DNA of 64,000 nt from Chitinophagales bacterium (GCA_019694975.1 JAIBAY010000001.1:626732-690731), one strand, 5' to 3'. Positions 43,026 through 53,759 are shown, counted from the stretch's first letter. Notes: generated by a model from the sequence alone, not told the origin. Made by a program: numbers and translations.

Positions 43026-43985
43026 TTAGTTACCCAATATCTTCATCAATTCATCCAGCCGCGGGGAGAGAATGATTTCCGTGCGCCTGTTTTTTGATTT
43101 TCCTTCCGGTGAAGTGTTGGAGGCAACCGGGAAATATTCGCCCCTGCCCGATGCTGTTATTTGCCTCGGGTCAACGCCGTTTTCCGTGAGTATCCTGATG
43201 ATGCTGGTGGCACGTAAAACACTCAGATCCCAATTATCTTTCATGGCACCGGTTCCTGCCAGCGGAACATTATCGGTATGGCCTTCCACTTCAATAGTAA
43301 GATCCGGATTCTGTTTCAGCACAACAGCCAGCTTCCTGAGTGCATCAGCTCCTTTGGGATCCACTGCAGTGCTGCCTGATTTGAACAAGAGTTTTTCCGC
43401 CATGCTAACGTACACCTTGCCATTGCGTTGTTCCACGGTCAGATCGCTTTTTTCAAATCCGAGCAAAGCCTTATTCAGCTGTGCTTTTAATGCGGAAGCA
43501 GCAGAGTCCTTTTGATGAAGCATTGATTGAAGCTCAGACAGTTTCTTCTCACGTGCCGCCAGGTTTTGCTGTAATGAATCAAGCTCCTTTCCTTTATTAT
43601 ACAGATCCGCCTGTTTCTTCTTCAGTGAATCATTGAGCGCCAACCGCTCTGAAGAAGCCTTTGATACCAGCAACTGATTCTGTTGAATAGCCTGTTCGTA
43701 CAGTTCATTGACATCACTATTGATCTCATTCGCTTTCCGGTATTTTTCTCCCAGGTAAGCAGTATCGCCTGCCAGTTTATTCACCTGGTCATTTGCTTCA
43801 TTAATCTTCTCTGTAAGCATCTTCAGCTGACTGCCCTGTTCATCCAACTGTTTTCGCATGCTGCTGTTTTCATCCATCAGCCTGCTGTTCAGCGCAGTGG
43901 CATCTTCCAGCTTCTTAGCGGGAACACAGGCACTGAAAAGCCCGGCAAGCAGGAGCAGCGACAACATTACTCTGTATCTCATCAT
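43026..43985 (-). CDS. OmpA/MotB-domain lipoprotein with coiled coil
   Basis: The ATG at 43985 (a second follows at once) starts MMRYRVMLSLLLLAGLFSAC, a lipoprotein signal. The 319-residue product has a long coiled-coil region (about residues 30-180, LNSRLMDENSSMRKQLDEQ onward) and a C-terminal OmpA peptidoglycan-binding domain with LFKSGSTAVDPKG, VEGHTDNVPL and NRRTEIILSP. It should tether the outer membrane to the cell wall. It lies 88 bases upstream of tatC on the same strand. Confidence 0.9.
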   Translation of the reverse strand: MMRYRVMLSLLLLAGLFSACVPAKKLEDATALNSRLMDENSSMRKQLDEQGSQLKMLTEKINEANDQVNKLAGDTAYLGEKYRKANEINSDVNELYEQAIQQNQLLVSKASSERLALNDSLKKKQADLYNKGKELDSLQQNLAAREKKLSELQSMLHQKDSAASALKAQLNKALLGFEKSDLTVEQRNGKVYVSMAEKLLFKSGSTAVDPKGADALRKLAVVLKQNPDLTIEVEGHTDNVPLAGTGAMKDNWDLSVLRATSIIRILTENGVDPRQITASGRGEYFPVASNTSPEGKSKNRRTEIILSPRLDELMKILGN

Positions 43986-44150
43986 GTGTTTTGATTTTAA
44001 GCGCCCGAAATTACAACAAATCATCCCTAACCCGTTCATCCGGCTAACATTCTAATTTGTGGAAAACCGGAGTACATGTTCAACGAATAAATAAGAAAGC
44101 AAGGAAGAACCATTACCGGATTTGTCGCCATGGAAATTATTGCAGGCATA

Positions 44151-44181
44151 AAAAAAGCCACCCCGCAAGAGGTGGCTTTTT
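44151..44181. terminator. Bidirectional terminator after the M43 protease gene
   Basis: AAAAAGCCACC and GGTGGCTTTTT form an 11-bp stem around CCGCAAGA. A-runs and T-runs on both sides let it work on either strand. Its main role is to end the protease transcript coming from the minus strand. Confidence 0.88.
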
Positions 44182-44199
44182 AATTGATGCAAAGAAATT

Positions 44200-46116
44200 T
44201 TACTTATCGATGCTGAACTTCATGCGGCTGGCTTCATTGCCATTGCGCACTTCGAACATGTACATTCCGGTAGCAATGTTGCTGATGTTAATGCTGTAAG
44301 TGTTGGTACCTTCTGTCGCAAAAGTCGACTGGTTGAAGATAACCTTGCCAAGCATATCATACGCGATGAGTTGTACGGCAGAATTTGAAGTACTGCTGTA
44401 TTCAACTACCATGTTACCGTTGGAAGGATTCGGGTAGATGTTGGTCATTTCACCGCCAATTACCTGGGCAGCAAGTTCAACAGTACGGAAAGGTGAGCTG
44501 CTGATACTAGCGGTAAGTGCATAGCAAACAGTTGCATTGGCTGCACCGCCGGTGCTGTAAACTCTTGCTTTGTAAGTACCCACCACGCTAGTGTTATAGT
44601 TGATAATATCATCCTGCGTGCCTGTCTTCTTGGAAGCCACGATCTTAGTACCGTTCGGGTCATAAAGATCAAGGTTGTAGTTGGCCGGCAAAGAGGTGAG
44701 CGCTACCTGTATATTCGGCTCTGAAACAGTGTTGGCAAATGAGAAGAAGTCAACATCTGTGGAGACATTAATCAAAGCATTAATGGTAACACCGGTAGAG
44801 ATCGGCTTAGCGGTTGATTTTGTATTATTAGCTTCGTAAGCATCGGTGCAACTTGGTGCGCCGGTAGTGAAGTTAGTAGAAGCAGAGAAAGCACTCGTAT
44901 TTCCGCCGGAGCATGATGATTGAACCTGGAATTCATATTGTGTGCTTGAACTCAGGCCGCTGATCGCTTTAGAAGTGGTAGCCGAAGTAGTAGAAGTCCA
45001 GGTGCCTGAACCTACCATTCTGTATTGAATATTGTAGGTCAATGCGCCGGTAGCAGCACTCCAGTTTAAAGTAGCGCCTGAGGAAGTGATACCGGTGACA
45101 TTTAAGCCTGCAGGCACATTACAGGTTCCGCCACCGCCCGGAGGGGTGCAACCATCAGAAGAAAGAATGGAAACGCGTGAACCACCTACGCCAAACAAAG
45201 CCTGCATTCTTGATTTCTGGCCGGTCGTGAAGAGGTTCATGCAACCATCATCCGTGTAATCCATGTAGTTGGAATACATGTCGCCGTTAGGACCATTGGT
45301 ACAGCTGATACGAACCGTAGGAAGCGGGCAACCATAGGTCTCATCTGCCTGATTTGGTGTATCGCTTACCTGGTCAGAGCCATTGCAGCCGTTACCATCA
45401 TCACCCCAGATGTGATAAAGATTCAGCCAGTGGCCAACCTCATGGGTAGCTGACCTGCCATACTGATAAGGAGGCGTAGCACCAATGTTGCCGGTGTAAG
45501 CATAATCAATTACAACGCCGTCCGTGTTAGCGGGGCCGCCGGGGAATTGTGCATATCCCAGCAATCCGCTGCCAAGGTCGCAGATCCAGATGTTCAGGTA
45601 TTTACTGCGGTCCCAGACATCATGTCCGCCCTGTGAAGCGAACTTCACATTGTTATTGCTGGAGAATGAAGTCTTGGTGGTGGAAGTACGGGTGATACCG
45701 GTAGTGGCATTTCCTGAAGGATCGCGTGCTGCAAGGCAGAAGTTGATTTCGCAGTCAGCAGCTACACCGGCAAAAACAGCAGGTGTTTCATTAACATCAG
45801 GATTCAAACGACGGTAGTCCTGGTTCAACACGTCCAGTTGTGATAATACCTTTGCGTCTGAAATATTTTCAGCAGTGGTATTGTAAACAACGTGAAACAC
45901 AACAGGAATGGTAACCTGCGTGCGCGTTCCGGAAGGATTTGCCTTGATGTATTCACTGGTGAATGCATCAATCTTTTGCAATTCCTCCTGGTAACCGGGA
46001 TTTTCCTCGAAGAGTTGTTGCATTACTTCAGTAGTTCCGCAACGGTTTACCTGCTGGGAGAAGGCTGAAGTTGCCATCATTGCAATGACAGCAGAAAGTA
46101 GAAACAATTTTCTCAT
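44200..46116 (-). CDS. Secreted M43 (pappalysin-type) zinc metalloprotease with FnIII and T9SS domains
   Basis: 638 residues: signal peptide (MRKLFLLSAVIAMMATSAFSQ), a propeptide, and a metzincin catalytic domain with zinc motif HEVGHWLNLYH (residues 225-235) and the Met-turn SNYMDYTDDGCMNLF. A fibronectin type III domain follows (LNVTGITSSGATLNWSAA), then a pre-peptidase-type beta domain (DAYEANNTKSTAKPI, VDFFSFAN) and a T9SS type A sorting domain (NIYPNPSNGN). It is a secreted endopeptidase of the cytophagalysin group. Confidence 0.94.
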   Translation of the reverse strand: MRKLFLLSAVIAMMATSAFSQQVNRCGTTEVMQQLFEENPGYQEELQKIDAFTSEYIKANPSGTRTQVTIPVVFHVVYNTTAENISDAKVLSQLDVLNQDYRRLNPDVNETPAVFAGVAADCEINFCLAARDPSGNATTGITRTSTTKTSFSSNNNVKFASQGGHDVWDRSKYLNIWICDLGSGLLGYAQFPGGPANTDGVVIDYAYTGNIGATPPYQYGRSATHEVGHWLNLYHIWGDDGNGCNGSDQVSDTPNQADETYGCPLPTVRISCTNGPNGDMYSNYMDYTDDGCMNLFTTGQKSRMQALFGVGGSRVSILSSDGCTPPGGGGTCNVPAGLNVTGITSSGATLNWSAATGALTYNIQYRMVGSGTWTSTTSATTSKAISGLSSSTQYEFQVQSSCSGGNTSAFSASTNFTTGAPSCTDAYEANNTKSTAKPISTGVTINALINVSTDVDFFSFANTVSEPNIQVALTSLPANYNLDLYDPNGTKIVASKKTGTQDDIINYNTSVVGTYKARVYSTGGAANATVCYALTASISSSPFRTVELAAQVIGGEMTNIYPNPSNGNMVVEYSSTSNSAVQLIAYDMLGKVIFNQSTFATEGTNTYSINISNIATGMYMFEVRNGNEASRMKFSIDK

Positions 46117-46245: not shown

Positions 46246-47613
46246 ATGGCTGCAAACAAGACCATTTTCTTATGCCAGCACTGTGGCGCACAGTCTCCTA
46301 AATGGATCGGGAAATGTCCATCCTGTGGTGAATGGAATACTTATGTGGAAGAAGTGATCCGGAAGGAAAGCAGGGCTGCGAACTGGCGCAAGAAAGACCG
46401 CGGACTGAAAGAACTTCGGCCGCAGCGAATTGATGAAATCAGTAATGAACTGAATAAAAGATATGTGACGCCCGATGAGGAGATCAACAGGGTATTAGGA
46501 GGCGGAATTGTAGCGGGCTCCATTATCTTGATTGGCGGAGAGCCCGGATTCGGGAAATCGACATTGCTGTTGCAACTGGCCCTCAGGCTCAAAGGGAAAA
46601 AAGTACTGTATGTGTCGGGCGAAGAGAGTGAGCAACAGATAAAGCTTCGTGCAGAACGGCTGCAGCAGCAGCATGCGGAATGTTATGTACTCACGGAAAC
46701 CAATACGGAAAATATTTTCTTCCAGGTGGCTTCCCTGGAGCCGGATATTCTCATCATTGACTCCATTCAAACCATGCAGACACCGACGATTGATGCATCG
46801 GCCGGAAGTGTGTCGCAGGTGCGGGAATGTACCAATGAATTGCTGCGCTATGCCAAGGAATCAGGAACACCTGTTTTCCTGGTCGGACATATCACTAAGG
46901 AAGGTACGCTGGCGGGGCCGAAGGTGCTGGAACACATGGTTGATACCGTTTTACAACTCGAAGGTGACCGTCACTATGCTTACCGTATTTTGCGTACCAT
47001 TAAAAACAGGTACGGTTCCGCCTCTGAGCTGGGCATCTATGAACTAACGTCGACAGGTATGAGGGAAGTGAAGAATGCTTCCGAACTGCTCATCACACAA
47101 CGCGATGAAGCTGTAAGTGGTATTGCAATCGCTTCCATGATGGAAGGCATACGGCCAATGCTGATAGAAACACAGGCACTGGTGACTCCTTCCGTATATG
47201 GAACGCCTCAGCGTACTTCCACCGGATTTGATTTAAGAAGGATGAATATGCTGCTGGCGGTTTTGGAAAAACGTTGCGGCTTTCATTTTGGCGTAAAGGA
47301 TGTGTTCCTGAACATTGCCGGCGGATTACGCGTGGAAGATCCGGCAATTGACCTGGCCGTTGTGGCTGCATTGCTGTCTTCTTATGAAGATGTGCCTGTT
47401 CAGAATAATTACTGCTTTTCGGGGGAAGTAGGACTCTCCGGCGAGATCAGGGCAGTGAACCGGATTGAACAACGTATCAGTGAAGCGGATAAACTGGGCC
47501 TGCAGAAAATATTTGTTTCCAAATACAACCGTAAGGGTTTGGATGTTTCCAAATATGCGATTGAAGTAAACTGGGTGGGAAAAGTGGAAGATATTATCAA
47601 CCGCTTGATTTAA
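46246..47613 (+). CDS. radA: DNA repair protein RadA
   Basis: 455 residues: an N-terminal zinc finger (CQHCGAQ then CPSCGEW), a RecA-like ATPase with Walker A GEPGFGKST and Walker B ILIIDSIQT, the RadA-specific KNRYGSASE motif and a C-terminal Lon-like domain (FLNIAGGLRVEDPAIDLAV, FSGEVGLSGEIR). It promotes branch migration in homologous recombination. It is divergent from the M43 protease gene and followed by a bidirectional hairpin. Confidence 0.96.
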   Translation: MAANKTIFLCQHCGAQSPKWIGKCPSCGEWNTYVEEVIRKESRAANWRKKDRGLKELRPQRIDEISNELNKRYVTPDEEINRVLGGGIVAGSIILIGGEPGFGKSTLLLQLALRLKGKKVLYVSGEESEQQIKLRAERLQQQHAECYVLTETNTENIFFQVASLEPDILIIDSIQTMQTPTIDASAGSVSQVRECTNELLRYAKESGTPVFLVGHITKEGTLAGPKVLEHMVDTVLQLEGDRHYAYRILRTIKNRYGSASELGIYELTSTGMREVKNASELLITQRDEAVSGIAIASMMEGIRPMLIETQALVTPSVYGTPQRTSTGFDLRRMNMLLAVLEKRCGFHFGVKDVFLNIAGGLRVEDPAIDLAVVAALLSSYEDVPVQNNYCFSGEVGLSGEIRAVNRIEQRISEADKLGLQKIFVSKYNRKGLDVSKYAIEVNWVGKVEDIINRLI

Positions 47614-47622
47614 TACAAAGAA

Positions 47623-47654
47623 AAGAGGCCGTCTTATTATTGAGACGACCTCTT
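47623..47654. terminator. Bidirectional terminator between radA and the small T9SS gene
   Basis: Twelve-base arms AAGAGGCCGTCT and AGACGACCTCTT pair with one C-A mismatch as plus-strand RNA; on the minus strand the same position is a G-U pair and a T-rich tail follows, so it works better for the minus-strand gene. Confidence 0.75.
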
Positions 47655-47674
47655 ATTCAATATTCCGGCTCAGC

Positions 47675-48532
47675 TTATTTGCGAATGGCAATCTTTTGTG
47701 TGTAGACCGCTCCGCCATTGATTACGGTAACAGCATAAATGCCATAGGCAAGATCTGACACATCAACCTGTGTGGATGAATTGTTAAGTTTCAGCGATTT
47801 CACCTGTTGTCCCATCATGTTCGTCATCAGCAGTGAAGCATTGTCAAGCTGCTGACTGATAAGGGTAGCATGCAAAATGCCGTCATAAGCAAAAATGGTA
47901 ACCGGCTGTGCTGTCGGAACAGCAGCTAGCGCCGTCGGGTCTCCCTGCCCTGCAAACAATCCTTCATTTGCGGTCGGGTTATATGCTATATCTTTTATGG
48001 TGATTGCATTTACCAAGCCTGACACATCCAGCCTTGCCCATCCGTAGAATTTATTGGTTCCGATTTTAAAACGCAATGGGATGTAACGGTCTTCCACGCC
48101 ATACCATTTTCCGAAAACAGAATAAAGCGAACTGCTTCCCGGCAACAATATGCCTTTTCCCATGGTTTGTGAAGCAGCGTTCTGCCATGGAATATTGGCA
48201 TCAATCATTTCACCGGCTTCAAGCGCATAGGGAAAATGATACACACCGGAATGCGTGCCACCGATAGATCCATTGTATGGTTTGGCAAATATTCTGTTCA
48301 CGGAATTACCACCGGCTGAGGTGCTGTGCGACAAACCAAGCGTAAAATCATTGGCTGCATTGTTATCCAGATCAATCATGTAAACAGAGCCGCTCTGATC
48401 CAGCATAACATCCGGTTCGATATCCGTATAGATCACCTGTGCACTGGCTGTTCCGGCAACTGCCACAATGGAACCTGCCATCGCAGAATAGGAGGTTAGC
48501 TTTCTTAAGAGTGTAGTATTTTCCTTTTTCAT
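47675..48532 (-). CDS. Secreted T9SS protein of unknown function
   Basis: 285 residues. A long N-region (MKKENTTLLRKLTSYS) precedes the hydrophobic part of the signal peptide ending ASAQ. The mature part starts VIYTDIEPDVMLDQSG and contains YMIDLDNNAANDF and WARLDVSG, a beta-rich pattern seen in secreted proteins of the phylum without a known activity. A short T9SS-like domain closes it (LLMTNMMGQQVKSL, YGIYAVTVINGG, ending IAIRK). A consensus promoter lies directly upstream. Confidence 0.8.
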   Translation of the reverse strand: MKKENTTLLRKLTSYSAMAGSIVAVAGTASAQVIYTDIEPDVMLDQSGSVYMIDLDNNAANDFTLGLSHSTSAGGNSVNRIFAKPYNGSIGGTHSGVYHFPYALEAGEMIDANIPWQNAASQTMGKGILLPGSSSLYSVFGKWYGVEDRYIPLRFKIGTNKFYGWARLDVSGLVNAITIKDIAYNPTANEGLFAGQGDPTALAAVPTAQPVTIFAYDGILHATLISQQLDNASLLMTNMMGQQVKSLKLNNSSTQVDVSDLAYGIYAVTVINGGAVYTQKIAIRK

Positions 48533-48549
48533 AGATATTGAGTTTGGCT

Positions 48550-48578
48550 CAAATGTAAATTATTTTTTTGTTCATCAA
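48550..48578 (-). promoter_or_regulatory. Bacteroidota promoter of the small T9SS gene
   Basis: On the minus strand, TTG (48576-48578), an 18-base spacer and TACATTTG (48550-48557) match the phylum's consensus. The predicted start point is about ten bases before the ATG at 48532, so the leader is very short. Confidence 0.6.
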
Positions 48579-48587
48579 TACTTCGTG

Positions 48588-51152
48588 TCAGACCTTTTCG
48601 ACAAATTTATTCCTGTATAGTGATTTATCGACAGCAGCCACCATTTTGGCGATATCCATGTCTTCCCCGAGAAATTCTGCTACAGCTTCCGCCACTTCTT
48701 CCGGCCTTTCAACAGCATCAGCATATTCGACAAACAAGGCATTCACATTTGGCGAGCGCTTGATCCATGCCATGGATTGCTCCAATTGTTTACTGAATGC
48801 TTCACTTAATACAATTGGAAAAGCATTTTGCTGCACGGCTGATTTTCTTCCCAGCATCACCTGCTGCGATTTAAGCACTTCGGCCATATCACGCTGCATG
48901 AATATTATCTTGTAATCATATTTTGCCGGAAGGTAACTTAACAGCGGTGCCACTATTTTCAGTGTCTTGTTATTGGCTTCTTCCAGCCACGACACATCCG
49001 ACATCATCTTCTTCACTTTTTCATATTCCCAATATCCTTTCGGATTGTTATTGTCTGCCTGCCGGATTTCATCGGTAACAATTTCCGCGCCGCCGGCTTT
49101 CAGCATCTGCATCATCATGCTGGTGCCTGAACGTGGCAAACCGGATACTACGGTGATAACACCTTTTATTCGTTCCTGGATAAACCTGCGGTGCTCCGAT
49201 GCTTTTTCCGGCTGTTGCAGCTGTTCTTCATACAGCCTGATCAGCCATAAATGCGCTTTGCGGTTACCGGGACTGATGGCACAGCACACTTCAAACGCTT
49301 CAGCGGCCCTTTCATATTCGCCTAAATTCATCAGTGCTTCTGCAAGATTATAATGCGCAACGGGATAATAGTATAACAGTCCGATGGCATTTAACGCTGA
49401 CTCTGCAGCCTCTTCAAATTTGCCCTGCCGCAGATAAACGCCGCCCAGCCCCTGGTGTGCATTGGCATTCTGTGCATCAATAGAAAGTGCTTTTAAAAAT
49501 GCACGTTCCGCGTCCGGCAGGTGCTGACTCCGCAAATAGATTCTTCCGATCTGCACATGCAGCTGCGACATATGACCGGCCCGTGCTTCCGCCTTCAGCA
49601 ACATTTCAAGCGCCTTCCTCGGCTTATACTCCAGCAGCAGCAATGCGCCTTCCAGCATATCGAGCTGTACCATATTATTCGATTCAGACTCCGCCTGACG
49701 CACTTTTTCCAGGATTGCCCTGAACTCCGCCACCTTGCGCATCTGCTGATAGCAACGGATCAGCGACAAACCATAGCGTATTTCAGGTTCTTCACCGTAA
49801 ATTTCTTCCAGCAATTCCACCGCTTTATCGTACTGCTTTTTATACATGTATACCCTGGACAGGTACCATTTCGACTCACGGGTTATCTTCTCAATATTCT
49901 TCTGTTGATTTTCGCCTGGTGCTTCAATGTAACCGAGCTCGACCAGCTGTTTCATGGCCTCTTTCGCTGCCCATGGATCCTGTCGCCGCTCCGAAGGATG
50001 CATGCCCGCTTCGCCTTCCACGTTTTCCCATGATTCAATATAATCAGGCTTGTTCGGTGTTTCGAAAGCCTGCACCAGCACCTTGCCATCCATATCCTGT
50101 CCTACAGGCAAGCCTAACATGGTTAAGATGGTGGGCGTTACATCCAGCAGGGTGGCGCCGTAAATGCGCTGATCTTTCTGAATGTTATCCCCGCGCATAC
50201 AGAGTATGCCGTACGGTGAATGTTCATGCGCCGGGCCGGCCGGTTCTTTCGGTAATTTATTCGGGCGCAGATGATCCGGATGAAAGCCATGGTCACTCAT
50301 CAGGATCACAGTAGTATCCGGACCGGCAATTTGCAATAGCCTTTCCAGCATCATATCATGAAAACGATAGATGCCGCTTACTGCATCTTTATACAGTTCA
50401 AACGCCTCATCCGGAATACCTTTCCGTTGCGGCGGATGAAACTTCATGAATGCATGACTGTAATGATCAATAGCATCATGATACACGGCGAGAAAATCCC
50501 AGTCCTTATTCTCCATGATCCACGTAGAGGCATTGTGAATACATGCCGCATTAGCAAGTATCTTGGCTCCCTGTGCCAGTCGCGGATCCACATCCTGGTT
50601 GATTTTTTTGAAATTAGGAAATAATGGCGCCAGGTGAGAAAGTGTGAGTTCGCTGGGATGCACCCTTAATTCCTCAAAAACGGAATTCAAATCATCAGGG
50701 TAAACGGTTCCTTCTGCCATGGGCCATGGTTCATGATAAGCACCGACAGCACGCTGATAAAAGTTTGATACCATGACGCCGTTAATGGGCTCAGCCGGAT
50801 GACTCGGCCACCAGCCCACAACGTGCGACTTAAATCCTTTTTGTGTTAAAATATTCCAGATGGCTTTCACCTTACGGGAAGTGGAGAGCACAGGCCTAAC
50901 CTGCATCTTCTCGGCATCCGGCTCAACAAATCCAAGGATGCCATGCTTATCTGCCAGTTTACCGGTAGCAATGGATGTCCATAAGATAGGCGACAATGGC
51001 GGATCGAGTGTTGCCAGATTGGCAATCACCCCTTCATTCACCAATTTGTTCAAGGTGGGCATCATCCCGTTGTCCATTAGCGGGTTGATCACTTTCCAAT
51101 CAGCGGCATCCCAACCGATCAGCAAAACTTTCTTAGCCGTTCTTTTGCTCAT
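48588..51152 (-). CDS. Phosphodiesterase-TPR-sulfotransferase fusion protein
   Basis: 854 residues in three parts. Residues 1 to about 395 are an alkaline-phosphatase-superfamily phosphodiesterase (type I phosphodiesterase/nucleotide pyrophosphatase): KVLLIGWDAADW with metal-ligand Asp15, nucleophile region PILWTSIATG (55-64), and VILMSDHGFHPDH. Residues of about 420-650 are TPR repeats (HQGLGGVYLRQGKFEEAAE, YNLAEALMNLGEYERAAEA). Residues 666-854 are a sulfotransferase fold with the 5'-phosphosulfate loop VVSGLPRSGTS and the 3'-phosphate motif MQRDMAEVLKS. There is no signal peptide. The substrate is unknown. Its start overlaps the 90-residue gene upstream by 20 bases. Confidence 0.88.
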   Translation of the reverse strand: MSKRTAKKVLLIGWDAADWKVINPLMDNGMMPTLNKLVNEGVIANLATLDPPLSPILWTSIATGKLADKHGILGFVEPDAEKMQVRPVLSTSRKVKAIWNILTQKGFKSHVVGWWPSHPAEPINGVMVSNFYQRAVGAYHEPWPMAEGTVYPDDLNSVFEELRVHPSELTLSHLAPLFPNFKKINQDVDPRLAQGAKILANAACIHNASTWIMENKDWDFLAVYHDAIDHYSHAFMKFHPPQRKGIPDEAFELYKDAVSGIYRFHDMMLERLLQIAGPDTTVILMSDHGFHPDHLRPNKLPKEPAGPAHEHSPYGILCMRGDNIQKDQRIYGATLLDVTPTILTMLGLPVGQDMDGKVLVQAFETPNKPDYIESWENVEGEAGMHPSERRQDPWAAKEAMKQLVELGYIEAPGENQQKNIEKITRESKWYLSRVYMYKKQYDKAVELLEEIYGEEPEIRYGLSLIRCYQQMRKVAEFRAILEKVRQAESESNNMVQLDMLEGALLLLEYKPRKALEMLLKAEARAGHMSQLHVQIGRIYLRSQHLPDAERAFLKALSIDAQNANAHQGLGGVYLRQGKFEEAAESALNAIGLLYYYPVAHYNLAEALMNLGEYERAAEAFEVCCAISPGNRKAHLWLIRLYEEQLQQPEKASEHRRFIQERIKGVITVVSGLPRSGTSMMMQMLKAGGAEIVTDEIRQADNNNPKGYWEYEKVKKMMSDVSWLEEANNKTLKIVAPLLSYLPAKYDYKIIFMQRDMAEVLKSQQVMLGRKSAVQQNAFPIVLSEAFSKQLEQSMAWIKRSPNVNALFVEYADAVERPEEVAEAVAEFLGEDMDIAKMVAAVDKSLYRNKFVEKV

Positions 51153-51405
51153 GCTGCTCCTGTTCTTTTTTTAGCTTCGCTTCTTCCAACTTTTTCTGAC
51201 GTTCTTCTTTCCTGCGCGCACTCTCTGCTGCCTGTTTCCTGCAACGTTCCAACAACTGTTCCTCATATCCTGTCTCCATCCGCTTCTGTCTCCACGGTTT
51301 CATGGCAACAGCACCCAAAGCCAGTAAACCCAATGATCCTTCAACAGGAATTTCAAATACCGCACGCTTGTTTGCGGACTGGTTGTTGTTTTCTTGCCCA
51401 TTCAT
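51133..51405 (-). CDS. Small Lys/Glu-rich protein overlapping the fusion gene
   Basis: 90 residues of unknown function. The first 16 are Asn/Gln-rich; then FEIPVEGSLGLLALGAVAM forms a short hydrophobic stretch, PWRQKR a basic stop, and residues of about 48-90 a strongly charged helix (ARRKEERQKKLEEAKLKK). The hydrophobic part is too short for a typical transmembrane helix but could sit in the membrane surface. Its last 20 bases overlap the start of the phosphodiesterase-TPR-sulfotransferase gene, so the two are probably translationally coupled and may act together. Confidence 0.7.
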   Translation of the reverse strand: MNGQENNNQSANKRAVFEIPVEGSLGLLALGAVAMKPWRQKRMETGYEEQLLERCRKQAAESARRKEERQKKLEEAKLKKEQEQHEQKNG

Positions 51406-51564
51406 AGGTTATCAATTTAGATTACCCGTCTCCGGATGAACTGCTTCTTAATATTTTGAGGGCGTGAAGAAATAAAAAAAAACGACGGGTAACAAATTCA
51501 TTTGGCAGTTGATTGCGGGGCTGATTCGTTTTTACTACCTTTTCATCCTATTTTATCTGTTTGT

Positions 51565-52266
51565 ATGCTTCTTGTTAAAGAATATCTGGCTGACTTTATT
51601 TCTCTTTTCTATCCGCAGCTGTGCAGTTCCTGCGGACACGCTTTACAAAAGGGGGAAGAAGTCATCTGCACATTTTGCCGGCACTATCTGCCGAAGACCT
51701 ATTTCCACCTGGAACGCAATAACGCCATTGAAAAACATTTCTGGGGACGTGTTGCCATTACCCGTGCTGCAGCCTGTTATTATTTTCAGAAAGGCAGCCG
51801 GGTGCAGCACCTTATCCACCAGCTGAAATACAAAAACAAAACGGAAGTAGGCGTTACCATTGGAAAGATCTACGGCCATGACCTCCTGCAGTCTGTTGAT
51901 TACCGCACCGTTGATTTAATAGTGCCCGTGCCACTGCACAAGTCGAAAGAACTGCTGCGTGGTTATAACCAGGCCGACCTGTTCAGTGAAGGGCTTTCGG
52001 TAGCGATGGAAAAGCCCTGGAGTAAACATGCGCTGCAGCGTATCTCTGCAACGGAAACGCAGACGCATAAGTCGAGGTTTGAACGATGGCAAAATGTTGG
52101 TTCCGTATTTAAAGTTTCGAAGCCGGCTACACTGGCCGGAAAGCATATACTGCTCACCGATGATGTTATCACGACCGGTTCAACACTGGAAGCCTGCGCA
52201 CAAATTTTACTGGAACTGCCGGAAACGAAGGTGAGTATCGCAACGATAGCCTGTGCAGTGAAATAG
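51565..52266 (+). CDS. ComF-family phosphoribosyltransferase
   Basis: The ATG at 51565 gives MLLVKEYLADFISLFYPQLC, the usual start; the frame is open further upstream without homology. The 233 residues have two Cys pairs of a zinc-binding module (CSSCGHAL, CTFC) and a type I phosphoribosyltransferase fold with VPVPLHKSKELLRGYNQA and the PRPP loop LLTDDVITTGSTL. In competent bacteria ComF helps DNA uptake; here no other competence gene is near. It is divergent from the small gene at 51133. Confidence 0.9.
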   Translation: MLLVKEYLADFISLFYPQLCSSCGHALQKGEEVICTFCRHYLPKTYFHLERNNAIEKHFWGRVAITRAAACYYFQKGSRVQHLIHQLKYKNKTEVGVTIGKIYGHDLLQSVDYRTVDLIVPVPLHKSKELLRGYNQADLFSEGLSVAMEKPWSKHALQRISATETQTHKSRFERWQNVGSVFKVSKPATLAGKHILLTDDVITTGSTLEACAQILLELPETKVSIATIACAVK

Positions 52267-52343
52267 TATTTATGGCGATTCCTTTTATGTGACAAGGCGT
52301 ACACCATGCAACAAGTCGTAATAAAAAATGATCTTTGCCGTTC

Positions 52344-53759
52344 ATGACGTCTGTGCGTATTCCATTCATTCCGCTCTTTCTGCTTTTCCTCGCAGGAGCC
52401 GTATTTTCTTCCTGCAAAAAGGACACAATTACTACCAATGCGTCCGACAAACTCTCCTTTTCCACCGATACACTTACGTTTGATACGGTGTTCACAACGC
52501 TGGGCACCACCACCCTTTATTTCACCGTACATAATCCGCACAATCAAAGAATCAGCATCAGTGACATACATCTTGCCGGCGGGCAACAGTCATTTTTCCG
52601 CTTGAATATTGATGGCCAGCAGGTGAACAGCATCAGCAATATTGAAATTCCGGCCAACGACAGCATTTATATTTTCGTGTCGGCGACCATTGACCCCAAT
52701 GAGGAAAACAATCCTTATGTGCTGTACGATTCTGTACTTTTTGAAACGAATGGAAATTTTCAGTCAGTCACTTTACAGGCCTGGGGCCAAAATGCCAATT
52801 TCATTTATGGTGAAGTGATAGGAACACAGATATGGACACCGGAAAAGCCCTATGTCATCATACACTCCATCCTGGTTGATTCAAATAAAACGCTTACCAT
52901 TCAGCCTGGCTGCAGGATATTTATGCATGCTGATTCACGTTTTTATGTGCAGGGAACATTGAAAGTGATGGGACAAGTGAATGATTCCGTCATCTTTCGC
53001 GGCGACAGGCTGGAATCATACTATGTGGATGATCCCGGAAATTGGGAAGGCATTCATTTCCTGCGCAGCAGCCATGATAACGAGATCAACTATACGGTCA
53101 TTAAGGAAGCCATTGTTGGGATAAGAGTTGACTCGCTGAAAGAAACGGCAGCTCCCAAACTCACGTTACGCAACTCCCAGATCAGGTTCACCTTATCATC
53201 AGGCTTGCTGGGAATTACAGCTGACCTCTATGCAGAAAATTGCCTTATACAAGGTTGCGGTGAATGGAATGTTCAGCTGGAATATGGCGGCAACTACCAG
53301 TTTGAAAACTGCACCTTCGCCAATTATTCTTCCATTCTTATCAATCATCAAAGTCCCGTGGTAAGAATGAGTAACTATTATGCGTATAAAGATGAAAACG
53401 GTATTGAACAGATCTTACCGGCCAGCCTGAATGCCTCTTTCAGGAATTGTATCGTGTATGGATCACTCGAAAAAGAAATTGATCTTGATCCGAGCAGTCT
53501 TGCAGCGTATGATTATTCTTTTAATCATTGTCTCCTGAAGGTGAACGAGGACATTGACACTACTGCGGCTGCCTTCAGTGACTGCCTGTACAACAAAGAT
53601 CCCTTGTTTGCTGATCCTTTCGATCATGACGACTATCACTTGTCTGAAGGATCGCCGTGTATTAATGCAGGATTCGCCAATGGCATATTACTGGACCTTG
53701 ATGGTAAGCCGCGCAATGATGGCTTGCAGGACATCGGCTGCTATGAATATCAGCCCTGA
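52344..53759 (+). CDS. Lipoprotein with right-handed beta-helix
   Basis: 471 residues from ATG 52344, chosen over an upstream in-frame TTG. The signal (PLFLLFLAGAVFSSC) has a clear lipobox. An Ig-like module follows (LSFSTDTLTFDTVFTT, TLYFTVHNPHNQ), then repeated strand turns such as GNWEGIHFLRSSHDNEINYTV, as in parallel beta-helices that bind or cut polysaccharide. The tail SPCINAGFANG with DIGCYEY is the choice-of-anchor Q ending. No catalytic residues can be assigned. It stops 12 bases before the convergent murB. Confidence 0.85.
   Translation: MTSVRIPFIPLFLLFLAGAVFSSCKKDTITTNASDKLSFSTDTLTFDTVFTTLGTTTLYFTVHNPHNQRISISDIHLAGGQQSFFRLNIDGQQVNSISNIEIPANDSIYIFVSATIDPNEENNPYVLYDSVLFETNGNFQSVTLQAWGQNANFIYGEVIGTQIWTPEKPYVIIHSILVDSNKTLTIQPGCRIFMHADSRFYVQGTLKVMGQVNDSVIFRGDRLESYYVDDPGNWEGIHFLRSSHDNEINYTVIKEAIVGIRVDSLKETAAPKLTLRNSQIRFTLSSGLLGITADLYAENCLIQGCGEWNVQLEYGGNYQFENCTFANYSSILINHQSPVVRMSNYYAYKDENGIEQILPASLNASFRNCIVYGSLEKEIDLDPSSLAAYDYSFNHCLLKVNEDIDTTAAAFSDCLYNKDPLFADPFDHDDYHLSEGSPCINAGFANGILLDLDGKPRNDGLQDIGCYEYQP

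Follow-up and report, generated by a model that had tools for sequence, protein, structure and literature searches.

The fusion gene and its putative operon

In the 64,000-nucleotide stretch of Chitinophagales DNA analysed here (the window), a single open frame at 48588..51152 on the minus strand encodes a phosphodiesterase-TPR-sulfotransferase (PDE-TPR-ST) fusion of 854 amino acids. An earlier, sequence-only reading had described an 854-residue chain of these three parts that lacks a signal peptide. Both statements hold, as the frame is as described, all Pfam matches exceed their gathering cut-offs and no signal peptide is visible at the N-terminus, MSKRTAKKVLLIGWDAADW. The PDE domain, of the alkaline phosphatase (AP) superfamily, covers residues 1-372 (50037..51152, minus strand), as judged from PF01663 and fold matches. 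It is followed by a TPR superhelix at residues 416-661 (49170..49907, minus strand), recognized by Pfam TPR families at about 430-640 and by helical hairpins in the structure model, and by a PAPS-type ST domain at residues 664-846 (48615..49163, minus strand) that matches PF13469 and PF00685. The earlier reading had proposed a domain search and a structure prediction of the fusion alone. In the former, Phosphodiest, TPR and Sulfotransfer families were all matched; in the latter, an AlphaFold2 model built from 13 homologs (mean pLDDT 75.6, pTM 0.54), a domain of the AP superfamily, an array of helical repeats and an ST domain of alpha/beta type can be seen. Flexible regions of the model are weak, with PDE active-site loops below a pLDDT of 50.

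The fusion is neither a chimera nor a chance open reading frame. Frames of ~820-980 aa were found in more than 25 genomes, and the same one-frame architecture recurs within the order (the close hits bear the name Chitinophagales), in other Bacteroidota, in Nitrospirota and in Desulfoluna, with fragments in Lentisphaerae and Thioploca. As it is present in 2 of 392 sampled high-quality Bacteroidota genomes, the fusion is rare and patchy in this phylum. Gene calls in the fetched loci are mechanical, and the Bacteroidota set comes mostly from one order and includes many MAGs.

Two genes on the same strand flank the fusion. Upstream, a small gene of 90 aa at 51133..51405 (minus strand) overlaps the fusion start by 20 nt, just as previously noted. 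Downstream, after 55 nt, 47675..48532 (minus strand) encodes an exported protein of 285 aa, here called the YGW protein, which is a candidate client of the fusion. A terminator-like stem of 12 pairs (47623..47654, minus strand; consensus scan only) directly follows the YGW stop codon, and the scan listed no same-strand terminator between the fusion and the YGW gene, making it plausible that small gene, fusion and YGW gene form one operon. No Rfam RNA was found at window positions 47000-52500.

The two catalytic domains and their paralogs

The PDE domain matches Phosphodiest (PF01663) over residues 9-292 (3.6e-27; 96.3 bits against a cut-off of 23). In a fold search, the N-terminal part of the fusion aligned with PafA, SPAP and NPPs at Z scores of 21-23, and a PDE profile search retrieved phosphonoacetate hydrolase and Xac NPP. 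Seven residues are nearly invariant in homologs and were given their roles by motif: S54 is the putative nucleophile, and D15, D226, H230, D287, H288 and H311 are the putative metal ligands. Although PafA, Xac NPP and phosphonoacetate hydrolase have the fold and the inferred catalytic residues in common with the fusion PDE, PafA, the NPPs and phosphonoacetate hydrolase are free enzymes (PafA and NPPs being exported), whereas the fusion PDE is a predicted cytosolic domain joined to TPR-ST. A formylglycine-type sulfatase was rejected, as the sulfatase signature [CS]-x-[PA]-x-R is absent at the nucleophile (S54-P-I-L-W, with no Arg at +4); PF00884 scored just 28.4 bits against a cut-off of 25.

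The C-terminal domain matches Sulfotransfer_3 (PF13469; 1.5e-10, 42.1 bits against 27) and Sulfotransfer_1 (PF00685; 8.7e-8, 32.3 bits against 22), with matches spanning residues 668-836. In its loop, SGLPRSGTSMMMQML, the LPRSGTS motif had been placed at about 671-677 and lies one residue further on, at 672-678, and RDMAEVLKS, as stated earlier, follows ~80 residues past the loop, beginning at R754. Except in two degenerate paralogs, L672, P673, R674, G676, T677, S678, R754 and S762 are kept in all homologs; the 5' phosphosulfate-loop role and the 3' phosphate-binding role of the R754...S762 motif were assigned by homology. The ST fold was checked only by sequence profile, as PDE and TPR matches took up the whole-model fold search. 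The profile search reached SULT1 enzymes at 8e-7 and, weakly, TPST at 0.002, and stand-alone STs from Nitrospirota and Lentisphaerales share 41-48% identity with the domain. Some stand-alone relatives are encoded beside the PAPS-making enzyme APS kinase (L161, L162, L164 and L167), and in one locus (L166:7649-8824) APS kinase and the same ST family form one chain. As APS kinase adjoins or is fused to ST relatives and is present in the window's own genome, PAPS-dependence of the predicted ST is well supported. The earlier concern that the C-terminus might miss sulfotransferase profiles is therefore set aside: the profiles match and APS kinase adjoins the family. Whether a genome carries the fusion cannot be told from APS kinase, which 28 of 31 genomes have.

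Two genera of one family (G016 and G036) each carry two fusion paralogs. In one type (L064 and L065:8154-10727), all seven PDE residues are kept and the ST loop is lost (L672F, P673K; S762N). In the other (L067 and L065:10733-13270), all seven PDE residues are lost and the ST residues are kept. Each type forms a 100/100 clade spanning both genera, indicating that the two types diverged before the genera did and have both persisted. These residue patterns show that both predicted activities were retained after duplication, and the complementary losses suggest that the two are useful together, not necessarily on one chain. The proposal that the two enzymes act jointly thus gains support from the paralogs; that they would share a sulfated or phosphorylated substrate, as also proposed, stays conjectural. 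PAP inhibits sulfotransferases, and the PDE might accordingly do nothing but remove this by-product (or hydrolyse PAPS) as the housekeeping half of a standard sulfotransferase. Although its NPP-like fold would suit such a role, separate PDE genes exist in several architectures, and we consider this reading rather improbable.

The YGW family and the small gene

The YGW protein and its leader, absent from the sequence-only reading, are the strongest clue to the target. The leader (residues 1-32; 48437..48532, minus strand) includes LLRKLTSYSAMAGSIVAVAGTASAQ; its [KR] is found in 21/21 sequences, L/I/M in 21/21 and Y in 20/21. The C-terminus carries a T9SS type A sorting domain (residues 225-283; 47684..47860, minus strand), matched by PF18962 at 3.8e-8 and by TIGR04183 at 33.6 bits (cut-off 23), and with a fold match to T9SS C-terminal domains at a Z of about 10. 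Across the family, the leader motif [KR][LMI]xxY[SAT] precedes a beta domain, with YGW invariant in the aligned set, and a variable tail that is of T9SS type A, IPTL-CTERM (L173, L177, L036, L061) or PEP-CTERM (L175) type; midcut-by-XrtH (NF033207) reached 18-28 bits on these tails against a cut-off of 45. For the YGW domain proper, no Pfam or NCBIfam model scored above cut-off, and the fold search returned nothing convincing, its matches covering the T9SS tail only. In the flanks of L052, L053, L054 and L056, the YGW proteins next to the fusion are very large, reaching 900 aa, and have additional domains.

Identity is 36% in the leader and 28% in the mature part. Among 22 genomes searched, the leader was confined to fusion-positive genomes and two incomplete MAGs, and it is missing from distant YGW homologs, both in fusion-negative genomes and in two proteins of the window's own genome. 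In G016, it is found on a divergent HNGW protein beside the fusion, with an IPTL-like tail just under the model cut-off. Orthology could account for the conservation of the leader, which is never seen on a protein that is clearly unrelated. A possible parallel is offered by YSIRK-type signal peptides, which carry a conserved n-region motif marking a class of surface proteins, the motif and the phyla being different.

The small protein has a variable N-terminus, a conserved core (FEIPVEGSLGLLALGAVAMKPWRQKR) and a charged, variable tail. It had been described as Lys/Glu-rich, but this is not the whole of it: the charged tail is what varies, and the conserved part is a PEP-CTERM-like core, EGSLGLLALGAxGLxAWR, at residues 22-39 (51289..51342, minus strand; EGSLGLLALGAVAMKPWR). 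Twenty homologs give the core consensus EIPxEGSLGLLALGxVGLKAWR, with G23, L25, L27, L28, A29, G31, W38 and R39 invariant in 20 sequences. Codon positions 1/2/3 vary at 0.24/0.13/0.53 in the 17-residue core (19 homologs), indicating a real coding sequence under purifying selection. PFE-CTERM (NF050011) is the best sorting-type profile for the core; it was rejected as the family of the small protein, as scores stay below threshold (12.4-20.0 bits against 24) and the motif is internal. By its name, midcut-by-XrtH offers a precedent for a CTERM-type segment away from the very C-terminus. The core is charged in many orthologs (LGDVGLKLWR, LGYRGLEAWR) and less hydrophobic than most true tails. A transmembrane anchor is disfavoured by the D, K, R or E that orthologs have within the core, and an amphipathic docking helix appears more likely.

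The small protein might instead be a detached sorting tail, a PEP-CTERM-like segment acting in trans in place of the cis tails of YGW clients in other phyla and recognized by the enzyme or a sortase-like partner. The resemblance of its core to PEP-CTERM/PFE-CTERM segments (20.0 bits against 24 in L030) is consistent with this, as is the division between Bacteroidota, where clients mostly have T9SS tails and the small gene is present, and Nitrospirota, where clients have IPTL-CTERM/PEP-CTERM tails and no adjacent small gene. However, the window's own genome lacks exosortase PF09721, the PFE-CTERM match is under its cut-off, the charged, less hydrophobic core better fits a soluble amphipathic helix, and G016 and G053 combine IPTL-tailed clients with the small gene. 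We therefore regard a detached tail as unlikely.

Of 34 loci with enough flanking sequence, neighbour clustering showed 26 to have a YGW gene no more than about 4 kb from the fusion, and the small gene was upstream of or overlapping the fusion in 25 of 34. Across 60 relatives, the small gene is present in 22/23 fusion-positive and 0/37 fusion-negative genomes (Fisher p 1.6e-15, phylogeny ignored); outside the window's own family, the figures are 11/11 and 0/33, and the link holds over eight families. It co-occurs with the fusion even on another contig (G027, G053). YGW proteins at E<1e-20 were detected in 18/23 fusion-positive and 2/37 fusion-negative genomes, and the two fusion-negative genomes are the leader-bearing MAGs mentioned above, with completeness of 74% and 85%. 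The fusion genomes G044, G036 and Desulfoluna (L038) have no detectable YGW protein. YGW proteins number 1-24 copies per genome and the enzyme mostly one, suggesting that YGW proteins are clients.

Among 295 Nitrospirota genomes, we found seven near-full-length fusions, a few partial matches and, in about a dozen genomes, stand-alone STs. A YGW gene adjoins the fusion in 7/7 cases with flank, L036 and L037 being included among the fusions so flanked; in Thioploca, a YGW gene lies near the fusion. The earlier reading would have been refuted by a small gene not conserved beside the large one; this did not occur, as the pairing is conserved in Bacteroidota. By local inspection only, no small gene is adjacent to the Nitrospirota fusions. 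In a Thioploca MAG (L045:183-1300), an in-frame stop interrupts the YGW gene within the C-terminal tail and the fusion is spread over several frames, reflecting either assembly errors or decay.

Most fusions come from one order, and RadA, ComF-like and MurB-like flanking genes are also common to close relatives, as would be expected if synteny or lineage inheritance alone, with no functional linkage, had kept these genes together. Yet distant neighbours differ between families while small and YGW genes stay, Nitrospirota and Thioploca show the partnership as well, and even an unlinked small gene goes together with the fusion, leaving a neutral neighbourhood highly improbable. The gene partnership across phyla and the restriction of the leader are evident at the sequence level.

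Candidate substrates and known systems

Together, these data suggest a model, to which we give about an even chance, where a cytosolic enzyme modifies YGW precursors, or a glycan or anchor that these receive, before surface attachment. The cassette would be dedicated to one family of exported, surface-anchored proteins, with the fusion as a cytosolic two-headed enzyme. Its TPR superhelix may read the conserved leader of YGW precursors, and its ST may sulfate the precursor using PAPS. Tyrosine is a natural guess by analogy with RaxST/RaxX: the candidate tyrosines in the window's YGW protein are Y15 and Y35 only, Y35 is missing in some clients and the leader tyrosine is missing in Thioploca. Alternatively, the ST could act on a glycan or anchor precursor bound for the YGW protein. 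The PDE might trim that intermediate at a phosphate or phosphodiester, or clear the by-product PAP, and the small protein could be an accessory docking the enzyme on a partner or the membrane. The client would then be exported and fixed by the host system, T9SS in most Bacteroidota and exosortase-type (IPTL-CTERM/PEP-CTERM) elsewhere. The fuller version, in which the leader addresses a multi-copy exported family to a cytosolic PDE-TPR-ST with a small adaptor, and modification precedes anchoring by T9SS or exosortase according to phylum, is put forward tentatively. Against YGW precursors as substrates, neighbouring genes could share only regulation, and contact between enzyme and YGW proteins is hypothetical.

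The main alternative is that the enzyme sulfates, and removes or transfers a phosphoryl group on, a surface glycan or lipid such as an exopolysaccharide or anchor precursor, YGW proteins being matrix partners and not substrates. Exosortase/PEP-CTERM systems have been linked to exopolysaccharide (PMC1569441). Two Nitrospirota loci (L163 and L168), also absent from the sequence-only reading, have separate PDE and ST genes in the company of EpsI, PEP-CTERM proteins and TIGR02915, the PEP-CTERM-box response regulator (674-675 bits against a cut-off of 502.6). L168 has an exosortase (TIGR02602, 158.5 bits against 105.55), and there are genes for a ligase and an amidotransferase that resemble exosortase-A-system ones, under the models' cut-offs. 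The enzyme pair is thereby tied to surface sorting independently of the Bacteroidota data, and separate genes within exosortase loci also suit a glycan or lipid target. Several stand-alone STs lie among glycan-biosynthesis genes, fitting glycan sulfation, with apparent sugar-nucleotide or glycosyltransferase genes near the ST in L169 and L170; L165, L178 and L044, where an ST and a membrane protein accompany a pair of PDE-like genes, point the same way. However, full fusions have no consistent glycan-gene surroundings, their constant neighbours being YGW genes and, in Bacteroidota, the small gene, and a glycan enzyme alone would leave the conserved client leader unexplained. We therefore hold a glycan or lipid target to be possible, though not the likelier outcome.

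This recurrent operon of L165, L178 and L044 (Nitrospirota, Lentisphaerales) encodes, besides the PDE-like pair and the stand-alone ST, a protein of 63-73 aa and a membrane protein of 275-285 aa, and the L165 and L178 versions add a sulfatase-type protein. Several of its proteins end in RLxxLGY[LMF], like LGYI in the fusion linker.

The nearest functional model for modification of YGW precursors is RaxX-RaxST of Xanthomonas, where a PAPS-dependent ST is encoded with the precursor that is sulfated, then processed and secreted (PMC6637879). RaxST is a stand-alone ST serving one small peptide and type I secretion, whereas here the ST is joined to PDE and TPR, and the putatively sulfated clients are of ~280 aa with a signal-peptide-like leader and T9SS/CTERM tails. 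No ABC exporter was recognized by eye among ORFs at 43-57.8 kb of the window, where flanks were profile-searched in part. The nearest sorting model is PEP-CTERM/exosortase, in which, as here, many C-terminally tagged exported clients are served by few enzymes (PMC1569441). In Nitrospirota, PDE and ST genes are found within loci of this type, and a PEP-CTERM tail occurs on one YGW client. In contrast to that model, the window's own genome gave no exosortase match (PF09721, profile search), its clients are T9SS-tailed, and the PEP-CTERM-like segment is on a separate, extended small protein. No ST or PDE component is mentioned in the 2006 description of PEP-CTERM/exosortase sorting (PMC1569441).

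The TPR part of the fusion has fold matches to TPR-glycosyltransferases. In OGT and SPY (SPINDLY), a TPR superhelix joined to a transferase serves substrate choice; unlike the fusion, they have no PDE or ST domain and act in eukaryotic intracellular O-glycosylation. Literature searches for the PDE-TPR-ST combination, PFE-CTERM and midcut-by-XrtH returned nothing relevant. The parts belong to known families; what looks undescribed is their combination, along with the leader and the small gene, with no paper found and no named Pfam or NCBIfam model. That the cassette is a new kind of system is conceivable, but we would not yet favour it.

As of 2019, tyrosine sulfation in bacteria was documented for RaxX alone (PMC6637879). 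If YGW proteins are sulfated, they would provide a second, broader bacterial case and an enzyme-client pair defined by sequence. Should a glycan or anchor be the target, sulfation would be linked to how T9SS and exosortase systems attach proteins, a step that is little understood. In either case, the cassette supplies a named enzyme, a client family without a matching model, a candidate address motif and, in its activity-splitting paralogs, a natural experiment.

Two features of the surroundings are worth recording. The genes at window positions 43026-46116, near the cassette, appear ordinary for a T9SS organism; they encode an OmpA-like protein and a secreted, metalloprotease-like one that has a T9SS-type tail. 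In the same genome, a cluster of Sulfotransfer_3 matches ~15-30 kb before the window start (G000:C1:595162-611574) is possibly a glycan sulfation locus.
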